DNA of 53,353 nucleotides, taken from the NCBI GenBank assembly GCA_903892645.1, contig CAITJF010000263.1, positions 1 to 53,353 of the forward strand. Direction: 5' to 3'. Source of the stretch: an uncultured Nitrosomonadales bacterium. GTDB taxonomy: Bacteria > Pseudomonadota > Gammaproteobacteria > Burkholderiales > Gallionellaceae. Made by a program: the position numbers and the translations under genes. The notes under the pieces are model-generated. The model was not told the origin of the DNA and searched no databases. It worked only from the letters and a program-made list of their open reading frames with translations. Below are positions 31,768 to 52,803 of the stretch, piece by piece (positions within the stretch are counted from its first letter, which is position 1; each line of letters begins with the position of its first letter).

Positions 31768-32616
31768 TTACTTGACCCATTGGTTCAACAGCCAGCGTGC
31801 CCACTCGGTCACATCCGTAGCCGTCATGCCGATGGCAACTCCCTGCTGCGCCAGCGCATCGCCCGCCGCACCGTGCAAATGCACAGCCAGCAGCAGGGCC
31901 TGATCTGCATCCAAACCTTGTGCAATGAAGGCGGCGATCATGCCGGTCAGCACGTCGCCCATACCGGGGCTGCTCATGCCGGGATTGCCGGTCTTGTTGA
32001 GGTACGTTTTGCCGTTAGAAGTAACGCAGACGCTACCCGCACCTTTCAGCACGACGGTGCAATGTAGTTTCTCCGCGAGTTGCTGTGCGGCTTCGGTGCG
32101 TGCGGCCTGCACCTTCGCCGCACTGATGCCGAGCAACTTTGCGGCTTCGCCGGGGTGGGGGGTGATCACGGAGGGGGTCTTGCGGGCGCGCAGGTCGTCT
32201 TGCAAATCGGGTTGGCGGGCGAGGAGGTTGAGCGCATCGGCATCCAGCACCAGTGCGGCATCTGTCTTGAGCGCTTCGTGCAGGATTTTCTGCGCGGTAA
32301 CCGAGGTGCCCATGCCGCAACCGACGGCCAACACATCCACGTTGGGTAAACGTAGCGCATCATGTACGCCGTGCAGCATCAGTTCCGGTTGCAGTAAGTC
32401 CACAACCGGGGCGTTGCCCGCCAGCAGTCCGACATGTACGCAACCTGCGCTCAGTTTAAGCGCGGCGCGTGCGGCCAGCAATGGCGCACCCACCATGCCA
32501 CTGGCGCCGCCGATCACTGCCACCGTGCCGAACATGCCCTTGTGGCTGTCGCGCGAACGCGGTTTGAGGAAGGCGGCGACCTGTTTTTGCGTGATTGCGG
32601 GGATACGTGTGCTCAT
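31768..32616 (-). CDS. nnrD: ADP-dependent NAD(P)H-hydrate dehydratase (C-terminal NnrD type)
   Basis: The product is 282 residues with KGMFGTVAVIGGASGMVGAP, DADALNLLA, TPHPGEAAKLLG and GNPGMSSPGMGDVLTG, the ribokinase-like core and ATP/ADP loop of the dehydratase. It repairs NAD(P)H hydrates. The usual N-terminal epimerase (NnrE) domain is absent, so the epimerase must be elsewhere. Oddity: its start codon lies inside a 6-bp direct repeat (CATGTG) flanking a MITE-like element that now forms its entire 5' leader. It is followed by crcB and the DUF190 gene on the same strand. Confidence 0.93.
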   Translation of the reverse strand: MSTRIPAITQKQVAAFLKPRSRDSHKGMFGTVAVIGGASGMVGAPLLAARAALKLSAGCVHVGLLAGNAPVVDLLQPELMLHGVHDALRLPNVDVLAVGCGMGTSVTAQKILHEALKTDAALVLDADALNLLARQPDLQDDLRARKTPSVITPHPGEAAKLLGISAAKVQAARTEAAQQLAEKLHCTVVLKGAGSVCVTSNGKTYLNKTGNPGMSSPGMGDVLTGMIAAFIAQGLDADQALLLAVHLHGAAGDALAQQGVAIGMTATDVTEWARWLLNQWVK

Positions 32617-32619
32617 GTG

Positions 32620-32804
32620 GGTACCTCTAAAAATTTAGAGTTCGCCCAAACGCAAGGCGTGGAAAAAATTTCGCTGCACCGCATATATATAAATATGTAA
32701 GCAAGAAAACGAAGTTTCAGTGCAGGGTAACCTTTAGGTTGGCCGAAACTAAGTTTTTTACGCAACGCAGCGGTTGGGATGAAATGTGAATTTTTAGAGG
32801 TGCC
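32620..32804. mobile_element. MITE-like element with 16-bp TIRs and 6-bp target duplication (copy A)
   Basis: GGTACCTCTAAAAATT (32620-32635) and AATTTTTAGAGGTGCC (32789-32804) are inverted with one mismatch. CATGTG directly flanks both ends (32614-32619 and 32805-32810), a perfect 6-bp target-site duplication. The 185-bp element has no gene. It contains GCAAGGCG…GGAAAAAATTT and ATATGTAAGCAAGAAA segments also present in the relative at 52620-52803, and internal hairpins (GTAACCTTTAGGTTGG; GTTTC…GAAAC). It separates nnrD from the divergent purL and probably supplies promoter or leader sequence. Confidence 0.75.
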
Positions 32805-32872
32805 CATGTGAGTAATCCCGGCTTGGCGGAGGTGCATAGTATAATTGCACTTTAAGATTTCTCCGCACTGTC

Positions 32873-35800
32873 ATGTCCATGTTCCGAGTTTCTGCCGGTA
32901 AAGCCGCCCTATCTTCCTTCCGTTTCGAAAAACTGCGCACCGCCCTCAAGGAGGCCGCACCCAATGTTGCGCTGGTAGAGACGCGCCACTGGTATTTCGT
33001 TGCGCTGAGAAGTATGGCGCTGGCTGAGGGCGATACGGTGCTGCTGGATCGTATCCTCGGGCTGGATGATGTGGCAGACGAGCCAGATGGCTCCGCACAG
33101 ATGCCCCCGCAAGAGGGACGCCGCGAGGTGCCCCAAGGGGACGCTGGCGGTATCTGCTCGCAAGCTCCCAGGCCGCTCAGTCAGCCCGGAACCTTCGGTT
33201 CCACCCCCGCGCAGCAGCGGCTGCTGGTGGTGCCGCGCCTCGGCACGATCTCGCCGTGGTCGTCCAAGGCTACTGACATCGCGCAACATTGCGCGCTGCC
33301 GCAGGTGGAGCGCATTGAGCGCGGTATGGCGTATTACTTCAAGACCAGAACTGGCAAGGAGCTCACCGGACAGGAGCTCAAGGCAATCCTGCCTCTGCTG
33401 CATGATCGCATGACGGAATCGGTATTATTTGATTTTGACGGCATCGCGGAGAAAATCTTCAGGCATGGTACGCCTGTGCCGCTGTCCACCGTGGATATCC
33501 TCGGTGGAGGGCGTGCGGCGCTGGAGGCCGCCAATCGAGACATGGGGCTGGCGCTGTCTGCCGACGAGATTGATTATCTGGTGGAGAATTTCCATAAGCT
33601 AAAACGCAATCCTACCGACGTCGAACTGATGATGTTCGCACAGGCTAATTCCGAGCATTGCCGCCACAAGATTTTCAATGCGGATTGGGTCATCAACGAT
33701 GAGCAGCAGTCTTACTCCCTGTTCGGCATGATCCGCAATACGCACAAGCTGCATCCGGAAGGCACGGTGGTGGCATACTCCGACAACTCTTCCGTCATCG
33801 AGGGGGCCGAGGTCGAGCGTTTCTATCCGCGCACCGACGGTAGCTATGCCTCCAGCACCGAATTGACGCATACGCTGATGAAGGTGGAGACGCACAACCA
33901 TCCGACGGCCATTGCACCGTTCGCCGGTGCGGCGACGGGCGCGGGCGGCGAGATTCGTGACGAGGGAGCGACCGGCTCCGGCTCCAAGCCCAAGGCGGGA
34001 CTGTCCGGGTTCTCGGTTTCCAACCTGAACATTCCGGGATTTGAACAGTCGTGGGAAGCAAATCCATACGGTAAGCCGGGACGCATCGCCTCCGCCTTGC
34101 AAATCATGATAGATGGCCCCATCGGCGGCGCGGCATTCAACAATGAATTCGGCCGCCCCAACTTGGCCGGATATTTCCGCACGTTTGAAGAAAACATCAA
34201 CGGCGAAATGCGCGGCTATCACAAGCCCATCATGCTCGCGGGCGGTGTCGGCAGCATCCGGGCGGAGCACACACACAAACACGCGCTGCCGACAGGCGCG
34301 CTGTTGATCCAGATCGGTGGGCCTGGCATGCTGATCGGCTTGGGCGGTGGCGCGGCCTCCAGTATGGACACCGGCGTGAATGCGGAGAATCTGGATTTCG
34401 ATTCGGTGCAGCGCGGCAACCCAGAGATGCAGCGCCGCGCGCAGGAGGTGATAGACCGCTGCTGGCAGATGGGCGGGAACAATCCCATCCTGTCCATTCA
34501 CGATGTCGGCGCGGGCGGTATTTCCAATGCGCTGCCGGAGCTGGTGCACGGCGGCGGCAAGGGTGCGCATTTCGAATTGCGCGCAGTGCCGAGCGAAGAG
34601 CGCGGCATGTCGCCGATGCAAATCTGGAGCAACGAGGCGCAGGAACGCTATGTGCTGGCGATTCCACCGGAACGGCTGGATGAATTCAAATCGCTGTGCG
34701 AGCGGGAGCGCTGTCCGTTCGCGGTGCTGGGGCATGCCACCGTCGGAGACCAGTTGACAGTGCATGACTCGGAATTCAACAACCACCCGGTGAACATGCC
34801 GCTATCGGTGCTACTCGGCAAACCGCCGAAGATGACGCGCAAGGTGAAGCGCGAAACCGTGGCGCTGCCCGCATTCGACGTGAGCAAGATTTTATTGCAT
34901 GAAGCCATCGAGCGTGTGCTGCGCCTGCCTTCCGTGGCGGACAAGACTTTCCTCATCAGCATCGGCGACCGCACCGTGGGTGGCATGACCGCGCGCGATC
35001 AGATGGTCGGCCCGTGGCAGGTGTCGGTGGCCGACGTGGCGGTGACGCTGATGGGCTACAACACCAATCTCGGAGAAGCGTTTGCGCTGGGCGAACGCAC
35101 GCCGCTGGCGGTGCTCAACGCACCGGCTTCCGGGCGCATGGCGGTGGGCGAGGCGATCACCAACATCGCCGCCGCGCGCATCGAAAAAATCGGCGATATC
35201 AAACTCTCCGCCAACTGGATGGCTGCAGCGGGACACCACGGCGAAGACGCCGCGCTGTTCGACACCGTCAAGGCGGTTGGCATGGAGTTGTGTCCGCAAC
35301 TCGGTATCAGCATCCCGGTGGGCAAGGATTCGATGTCGATGAAGACTGCGTGGCAGGAGGGTGAAAAGCGCAAAGAAGTCACCGCCCCCTTGTCGCTCAT
35401 TGTGACCGCCTTCGCACCGTGCGCCGATGTGCGCCAGACCCTTACGCCGCAACTCGCCGCTGATCTCGATACCGTGCTGCTGCTGTTCGACCTTGGGCAG
35501 GGCAAGAACCGCATGGGTGGCTCGGCGCTGGCGCAGGTGTACAAACAGGTGGGCAATGTCGCGCCGGATGTGGACGATGCGCGGCAACTCAAAAAATTCT
35601 TCGAGCTGATCCAGCGATTCAATGCGGAAGGAAAATTGCTGGCTTACCATGACCGTTCCGATGGCGGCTTGTTCGCGGCGTTGTGTGAGATGTCATTCGC
35701 CTCGCACATCGGGCTGGACGTCAATCTGGACGAATTGAAGGGCGATGCCATCAGCACCCTGTTCAACGAAGAACTTGGCGCGCTGGTGCAAGTGTGCCGC

Positions 35801-36955
35801 AGCGACCTGGCGGAAATTTTTGTGCGCTGCGACGAAGCCGGGTTGGAGGCGATACATGAGGTGGCGACGCTGAATATCAGCGGGACGATAACGGTTGCGC
35901 GCAACGGCAACACACTGTTCAGCAAGAACGTGATTGTGCTGCAACGCATTTGGTCGGAGACCACTTACCAGATACAGAAGCTGCGCGACAACCCGGCCTG
36001 CGCGCAACAGGAGTACGACCGCATACTCGATGCGTACGACCCCGGCCTGCATGTGAAGCTGACTTACGATCCGAACGAGAACCCTCTCCCTCAATCCTTC
36101 TCCCGCAAGCGGGAGAGGGAAGCAGAACCCTCTCCCGCTTGCGGGAGAGGGCAGGGAGAGGGAGCGTGCGTCAATATCAATCTGTCGCGCCCCAGAATCG
36201 CCATCTTGCGCGAACAGGGCGTGAACGGCCAGGTGGAAATGGCGGCGGCATTTGACCGCGCCGGATTCGCGGCAGTGGACGTGCACATGAGCGATATCAT
36301 CGCCGGGCGCATTGCACTGGCCGATTTCAAAGGCGTGGCGGCCTGCGGCGGCTTCTCATACGGCGATGTGCTGGGCGCGGGCAAGGGTTGGGCCAAGTCC
36401 ATTCTGTTCAATCCGAGGGCGCGCGATGAGTTCGAGGCATTTTTCAAACGCAATGACACATTTGCCTTGGGCGTGTGCAACGGCTGCCAGATGATGAGTA
36501 ACCTGCACGAGATCATTCCTGGCGCGGAACACTGGGCGCACTTCGCGCGCAACCAGTCGGAACAATTCGAAGCGCGTTTCGTGATGGTGGAAGTGCAAGC
36601 GTCACCCTCGATCCTGTTCGATGGCATGGCAGGCAGCCGCATGCCCATCGTGGTGTCGCACGGCGAAGGCTACGCCGATTTCGGCAATGCGCAAAAACTG
36701 CAAGCCGCGCAACCGCTGGTCACGCTGCGTTACGTGGACAACACCGGCAAGCCCACCGAAATCTATCCGCTTAACCCCAACGGCTCACCGCAAGGCATCA
36801 CTGGCCTCACCACGCTGGATGGGCGCTTTTCGATCATGATGCCGCACCCAGAGCGCGTGTTCCGTGCCGTGCAGAACTCTTGGTATCCGCGCGAGTGGAA
36901 GGAAAATGGCGCATGGCTGCGCATGTTCCAGAATGTAAAGAAGTGGGTAGGCTAG
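32873..36955 (+). CDS. purL: Phosphoribosylformylglycinamidine synthase (large, single-chain PurL)
   Basis: The product is 1360 residues, longer than the ~1290-1310 usual for proteobacteria. It converts FGAR to FGAM with ATP and glutamine. Seen are [14 protein letters not shown], the ATP-grasp-like core ([12 protein letters not shown] as [22 protein letters not shown] as [10 protein letters not shown]), and a C-terminal glutaminase with the catalytic Cys in LGVCNGCQM and His/Glu in MPHPERVFR. All key motifs are intact, so the enzyme should work. The extra length comes from two in-frame insertions: about residues 72-114 and about 1071-1098, the second being a palindromic repeat. A second ATG two codons in is an equally plausible start. 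Confidence 0.97.
33086..33214 (+). other. In-frame insertion in purL (N-terminal, about 43 codons)
   Basis: Between VADEPDG and [15 protein letters not shown] the protein carries about 43 extra residues, rich in Pro, Gln, Gly and Ser, which I do not expect in PurL. The DNA has short hairpins (CCCCAAGGGG; GAACCTTCGGTTC) and a CCCCAAGGGGACGC stretch like that in the intergenic repeat at 52620-52803 (CCCCACAAGGGGACGC). It looks like intergenic repeat DNA captured in frame. Exact borders are approximate. Confidence 0.6.
36082..36165 (+). repeat. Palindromic repeat inserted in frame in purL (84 bp, 28 codons)
   Basis: Outer arms CCCTCTCCCT (36082-36091) and AGGGAGAGGG (36153-36162) enclose TCTCCCGCAAGCGGGAGA and the palindrome CCCTCTCCCGCTTGCGGGAGAG. 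This is a common intergenic repeat; a further copy lies at 53194. Here it is translated, giving roughly residues 1071-1098 (…[13 protein letters not shown]) between the FGAM synthase and glutaminase parts, in a linker that tolerates it. Confidence 0.88.
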
Positions 36956-52622: not shown

Positions 52623-52803
52623 AAAGATTTAGATTTCATCTCAACTGCGGAAAGAATTTCTTGCTTACATATAACCCCATATGCCGCACGGCAAATTTTT
52701 TTCCGCGCCTTGCTGACGACTCCGCACGGGCTGCTTTTGCCCGTAACGGATTGGCGTCCCCTTGTGGGGTATTTGAGCGAACTCTGAATTTTTAGATGTA
52801 TCC
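52620..52803. mobile_element. MITE-like mosaic element (copy B), inverse orientation
   Basis: Read on the minus strand it starts GGATACATCTAAAAATT, then CAGAGTTCGC, and shares with copy A (32620-32804) the segments GAGTTCGCyCAAA, GCAAGGCG.GGAAAAAA, ATGTAAGCAAGAAA and GATGAAATcTaAAT. It carries a ~58-bp insert not in copy A (with CCCCACAAGGGG and CGGGC…GCCCG hairpins) and lacks a ~50-bp stretch of copy A. Total length is almost the same. The right terminus is more decayed and no target duplication is left. It fills the yciI-bolA gap. Confidence 0.65.

Follow-up and report, generated by a model that had tools for sequence, protein, structure and literature searches.

The nnrD gene of an uncultured Nitrosomonadales bacterium (Gallionellaceae) begins directly against a short repeated element, which raises the question of how the element came to lie there and what would now serve as the leader of the gene. 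We addressed it on a stretch of 53,353 nucleotides (assembly GCA_903892645.1, contig CAITJF010000263.1), called the window below. nnrD, assigned to NAD(P)H-hydrate dehydratase by its open reading frame and its match to models of that enzyme, occupies 31768-32616 of the minus strand, and purL lies on the opposite, plus strand at 32873-36955. Inspection of 32300-33200 places the element between the two genes, at 32619-32805 in consensus orientation on the plus strand, as delimited by the sequence, the empty site and the family copies. It is 187 bp long, corresponding to a canonical element of 141 bp and an internal module of 46 bp, and is non-coding, with no transposase inside. As an earlier, sequence-only reading had described, it resembles a miniature inverted-repeat transposable element (MITE): the left terminal repeat, GGGTACCTCTAAAAATT (32619-32635; read outward on the minus strand it ends ..TTTTTAGAGGTACCC), and the right one, AATTTTTAGAGGTGCCC (32789-32805), both given here on the plus strand, are identical at 16 of 17 positions. 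Both ends contain the motif CCTCTAAAAATT, for which the expectation over the entire window, allowing one mismatch, is 0.17 matches.

The nnrD start codon, complement of 32614-32616, abuts the left end of the element, and the region 32614-32809 reads ..CTC ATGT, GGGTACCTCTAAAAATT ... AATTTTTAGAGGTGCCC, ATGT GAG... The window sequence alone is compatible with a target duplication of 4, 5 or 6 bp, and the sequence-only reading had settled on the 6-bp CATGTG. Family statistics reject this length: among 199 family copies, perfect duplications were found 98 times at 4 bp, never at 5 and once at 6. Since the perfect duplications of the sibling copies sit at 4 bp, we take the duplication to be ATGT (32615-32618 on the left and 32806-32809 on the right, both consistent with the empty site); six bases appear to be repeated because the element's terminal GGG/CCC happens to match the C and G that frame ATGT in CATGTG. 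The duplication thus overlaps the nnrD start codon, as had been proposed, but includes two of its three bases rather than the whole codon. On the other side, the right ATGT and the last C of the element regenerate a minus-strand ATG at 32805-32807. Duplications in the family are A/T-rich, mostly TNNA. One copy in this genome (L005, G000:C65:7632) has, in place of the 4 bp, a direct repeat of about 18 bp (AGGCGTGTGGTTTTCCAT) on its two sides.

Comparison of the nnrD-purL intergenic region among relatives, which the sequence-only reading had suggested, revealed the precise empty site, ..TTCATGTGAGTAATCCCGG.., in two members of the same genus (G002 and G003). The G003 sequence, ..TTCATGTGAGTAATCCCGGCTTGGCGGAGGTGCATAGTATAATTGCAC.., matches the right flank of the window, and that of G002 differs by one base; the element was also absent from this gap in the other relatives displayed. 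The existence of relatives with an empty site indicates that the insertion is confined to this species or to a closely related group.

About 15 copies of the element occur in this genome, and matches were seen in 25 of 60 relatives and in 111 of 158 genomes of the bacterial family. An exact 20-base core was recovered in named records of Gallionella, Nitrotoga, Nitrosomonas, Sulfuriferula, Sulfuricella and related genomes; plasmid and phage records gave no match to the element, and Rfam none covering it at E<=1. From 334 loci we extracted 199 distinct copies with both ends, 129 of them exactly 141 bp long. Subfamilies are 72-75% identical at constant length, which suggests that the family is old. 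The repeats, the constant 4-bp duplication, the empty sites and the dispersed, multicopy family together confirm that the element is a MITE. The window copy is 46 bp longer than the canonical form because of a TTTCAGTGCAGGGTAACCTTTAGGTTGGCCGAAAC hairpin module (32709-32753, plus strand), lacking in the 141-bp copies and recurrent at eight other loci. At least three distinct modules occur at fixed points of the 141-bp element, giving forms of 180, 187 and 199-202 bp (seen in L009, L021, L049, L005, L008, L065 and window 32709-32753); these may be nested mobile hairpins. A second, decayed copy, detected by sequence match at 52627-52801 on the minus strand of the window, has a different module (CCCCACAAGGGGACGCC..), lies directly before the ATG of a short gene and has lost GAGG at its gene-facing end.

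Insertion had been attributed to a transposase acting in trans, and the empty site, the roughly 200 siblings with 4-bp duplications and an autonomous partner in relatives support this. In a closed genome with many young MITE copies (G050), eight pairs of the same ends are spaced 1334-1335 bp apart; these IS copies are nearly identical and five of the eight have perfect 4-bp duplications. Their two overlapping frames match the IS5 model NF033581, the first of them (L361) at 159.9 bits (cut-off 140). All eight copies have the transposase gene divided between these frames, and it may thus be frameshifted or use programmed frameshifting. Relatives of this transposase were found in 11 of the 158 genomes of the bacterial family, and four of the genomes (G090, G102, G137 and G151) contain elements of 1279-1335 bp with similar ends, perfect duplications (TTAA, TTTA, TTAA and TGAA, respectively) and open frames of 287-434 codons. 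A search for the same ends in the present genome gave a divided answer, with sibling copies here and the transposase found only in relatives: no long terminal-repeat pair surrounds a transposase in this genome (G000), and searching the draft assemblies G000 to G003 for the partner gave nothing at E<=1e-30. With no partner found in genome or genus, the copies here look like relics. Together, the shared ends and duplication length support the derivation of the MITE from an IS5-family element. Larger terminal-repeat pairs at L149, L276, L287 and L304 were discarded as tandem, split or chance pairs without transposase. PF01609 matches in five copy-rich genomes did not have the MITE's ends. In G050, the 4-bp flanks of L361 and L363 are swapped (TTTA..ATAA and ATAA..TTTA), as after a chromosomal inversion between IS copies.

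What might allow an insertion at a start codon to be tolerated? Read outward, both terminal repeats give TTTTTAGAGGNNCCC, in which GAGG resembles a Shine-Dalgarno sequence and stands 5 nt from the target. GAGG(TG) can pair with the anti-Shine-Dalgarno CACCTCC, the 16S 3′ context of which is exact in three members of the order and missing from drafts of this bacterial family. As had been noted, the whole leader of nnrD, and with it any ribosome-binding site, now consists of element sequence, and the element end facing the gene provides AGAGG (32624-32628, minus strand), with 7 nt between GAGG and ATG. The predicted duplex with the anti-Shine-Dalgarno strengthens from -4.1 kcal/mol in the empty nnrD leader to -7.1 with the element. 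More generally, in 42 of 54 cases the best duplex in the 20 nt before the ATG gained strength relative to the reconstructed empty leader (medians -6.5 kcal/mol with the element, -3.45 without).

The family as a whole piles up at start codons, in a sample of copies drawn by similarity and with gene starts taken from a simple codon model. An ATG lies at offset 2 from the terminal CCC in 49 of 393 ends, vs. about 7 at other offsets, and 32 of the 49 open a frame of at least 80 codons. Against a null built from the duplication preference of other copies, start codons at offsets 0-5 were observed 54 times (12.4 expected; 46 observed once homologous genes are merged) and at offset 2 30 times (2.1 expected). 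An ordinary MITE with no translational role could produce some excess: in compact operons, A/T-rich NNAT sites would be among the few tolerated targets, and where stop and start overlap (TAATG, TGATG), duplicating 4 bp would spare both genes. The A/T-rich duplications, the many start-adjacent copies that occupy narrow gaps in operons, where the upstream stop is 0-10 nt distant, and a mild excess of stop-adjacent copies (14 vs. 8.3 expected) all agree with this explanation. Because of these tight operons, the unconstrained 54 vs. 12 overstates the effect, and we used a second null confined to positions between the upstream stop and the start. The excess nevertheless survived, with 19 start-adjacent copies vs. 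5.6 expected in codirectional gaps with at least 15 allowed positions, and 7 vs. 1.9 in gaps with at least 50. We regard 19 vs. 5.6 as the trustworthy figure, with a few homologous genes (one of them three times) still in the count. Ends with GAGG are, moreover, start-adjacent more often than other ends (46/265 vs. 8/133, p=0.0017), and we consider it unlikely that tolerance of A/T-rich targets accounts for the pattern.

The start-codon pile-up is thus statistically supported, and supply of a ribosome-binding site by the element ends would be a function suggested by their sequence and spacing. The decay of individual ends does not favor this function: among start-adjacent copies with one altered end, GAGG is kept toward the gene in 8 and away from it in 6, giving no hint that selection acts more strongly on the end facing the gene, which counts against ribosome-binding-site supply. 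Gene-facing ends are decayed in some copies of this genome (L007, L008, L021). A depletion at offsets of 6-16 nt, expected if neither Shine-Dalgarno worked there, was looked for and not seen.

The excess could also arise at insertion rather than by selection, if the transposase has, in this lineage, a bias toward NNAT|G or start-region DNA. An ATG at +2 is indeed found at 49 ends when only 32 open a long frame, and in three of five G050 IS copies examined, one of them with an open frame. However, despite having the same ends, MITE copies are never start-adjacent in G050 (0/13) or in genus g9 (0/13), and perfect duplications elsewhere are mostly TNNA; we judge target choice to be the least probable of the explanations considered. 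Perfect duplications remain in 13 of 51 start-adjacent copies vs. 85 of 148 others (p=9e-5), and the start-adjacent share is 17/29 in this genus vs. 0/26 among the young copies of G050 and g9, a genus comparison in which lineage and insertion age are confounded. The age pattern fits retention of start-adjacent copies. In the 30 offset-2 copies, the two gene-side bases after CCC are often AT even where the far duplication differs (TTAT, CTAT, GCAT, TGAT). AT at this place lengthens the stem by AT pairs, as could follow from template-switch correction of a quasi-palindrome or from selection.

The element is predicted to fold on itself as a whole, at -80.6 kcal/mol on the plus strand (z -8.7) and -58.4 on the minus strand (z -5.5). 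Of 127 distinct 141-bp copies, 125 fold more stably on the consensus strand, in both subfamilies, departures from arm pairing being G.U rather than A.C on that strand. The terminal arms pair in nearly all 127 copies, and variable arm positions change together (positions 4/138 are paired in 126 of 127 copies, vs. 85 in shuffles). The GAGG signal thus lies within a very stable predicted hairpin, which could equally mask it, a point against ribosome-binding-site supply. An RNA regulator or silencer, whose strand-specific hairpin would occlude the start and tune expression or mRNA processing, would explain the strand asymmetry, the covariation with its one-sided G.U departures, and the AT-extended stem of 25/38 start-adjacent copies with imperfect duplications vs. 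15/63 others. Orientation within operons shows no clear bias (51:37), and strand-biased C-to-T change or template-switch correction could yield the same pattern; we hold a regulatory role to be improbable, about as much so as the ordinary-MITE account.

The duplicated ATG suggests how the hairpin might be opened. A far-side ATG adjoining the native leader is regenerated in 25 of the 30 offset-2 copies, opening frames of 9-68 codons that run into the element. At nnrD, the regenerated ATG would open a putative 64-codon leader ORF through the element (32613-32807, minus strand), whose TGA overlaps the nnrD start codon (ATGA), perhaps a translational-coupling arrangement. More speculatively, the native initiation site would be kept at this upstream ATG, and a ribosome on the leader ORF might melt the hairpin that pairs GAGG with the other terminal repeat. 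The 5′ arm would likewise be opened by a ribosome that terminates where an upstream gene ends.

On the purL side, the element does lie upstream of the gene, as had been pointed out, and the accompanying hint of an effect on it is weakened by a conserved, -10-like box beyond the element. This TATAAT (32840-32845, plus strand), conserved in the bacterial family between nnrD and purL, marks a probable promoter region; a block beyond the element, GCATAGTATAATTGC, is conserved in most of the family and adjoins purL. As the box lies between element and gene, the probable purL promoter would be downstream of the insertion and untouched, only the nnrD leader being displaced. Any nnrD promoter on the purL side would now be 191 bases farther from the start codon; a scan of the region found no sigma-70 promoter or terminator. 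PurL itself has a 37-residue in-frame insertion (33110-33220, codons ~78-114) that G003, of the same genus, lacks; the G003 protein has another insertion, of 16 residues (SPRPLAGEGVGERVSA-like), at a different place. A further repeat-like stretch of the window's PurL lies near 36100-36190. By analogy with the palindromic elements of Rickettsia, these look like in-frame palindromic repeats in a core gene.

We propose that a transposase acting in trans placed a non-autonomous, IS5-family MITE at C-ATGT-G, over the start codon of nnrD, in this species and not in its genus relatives. Landing on NNATG would remove the native leader and yet set a Shine-Dalgarno-like sequence 5-10 nt before the start, since each terminal repeat runs outward into AGAGG followed by 5 nt; start-codon insertions would be tolerated because a new signal is supplied. 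They would then become entrenched, because losing the element end would remove the gene's ribosome-binding site, and this would explain the predominance of start-abutting copies in old lineages, this genus among them. The insertion, its empty site and 4-bp duplication, the multicopy family and the same-end autonomous partner in relatives are observed. That the outward ends replaced the nnrD leader signal and were then entrenched is, on balance, the reading we favor for this locus. Its extension to the family, in which terminal repeats would double as outward Shine-Dalgarno sequences, replace ribosome-binding sites and become entrenched, with leader ORFs coupling translation through the hairpin, is more tentative, and we would lean slightly against it in this complete form. 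If true, it shows how a parasite survives landing on the base where a gene is most sensitive, and a site that one species has filled and its sister has empty offers a testable case of entrenchment.

How does the family compare with known systems? RUP, BOX and ERIC (PMC3049150, PMC2229807) are likewise palindromic intergenic repeats, some of them modular, co-transcribed with their neighbors; Shine-Dalgarno supply, as proposed here, is not reported in the portions of these sources available, which note BOX-encoded ORFs as lacking good Shine-Dalgarno candidates. The Rickettsia palindromic elements (PMC10969869) are also palindromes of ~150 bp that genes tolerate, and are translatable, but insert in frame inside ORFs, whereas the present family lands at gene boundaries. 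Correia elements of Neisseria (PMC10969869) are small MITEs immediately upstream of genes and affect their expression, in their case through promoters, IHF sites and RNase cleavage. Published MITE effects comprise promoters, IHF sites, RNase cleavage, sRNAs and coding fusions (PMC10969869, PMC2229807, PMC3049150, PMC6382973). The review PMC10969869, in which bacterial MITEs bring promoters, protein-binding sites, RNase sites and coding fusions, does not list supply of a translation initiation signal, and its text mentions neither ribosomes nor start codons; open-access full texts yielded nothing on terminal repeats as ribosome-binding sites, which is weak evidence of absence. IS5-family MITEs such as MITEAba12 (PMC6382973) are also short and multicopy, with the terminal repeats of an IS of the host group and A/T-rich duplications. 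MITEAba12 differs in being 113 bp long, with 9-bp duplications and putative outward promoters; in the present element the outward feature is Shine-Dalgarno-like, and the unusual part, statistically supported across the family, is the pile-up of such ends on start codons.
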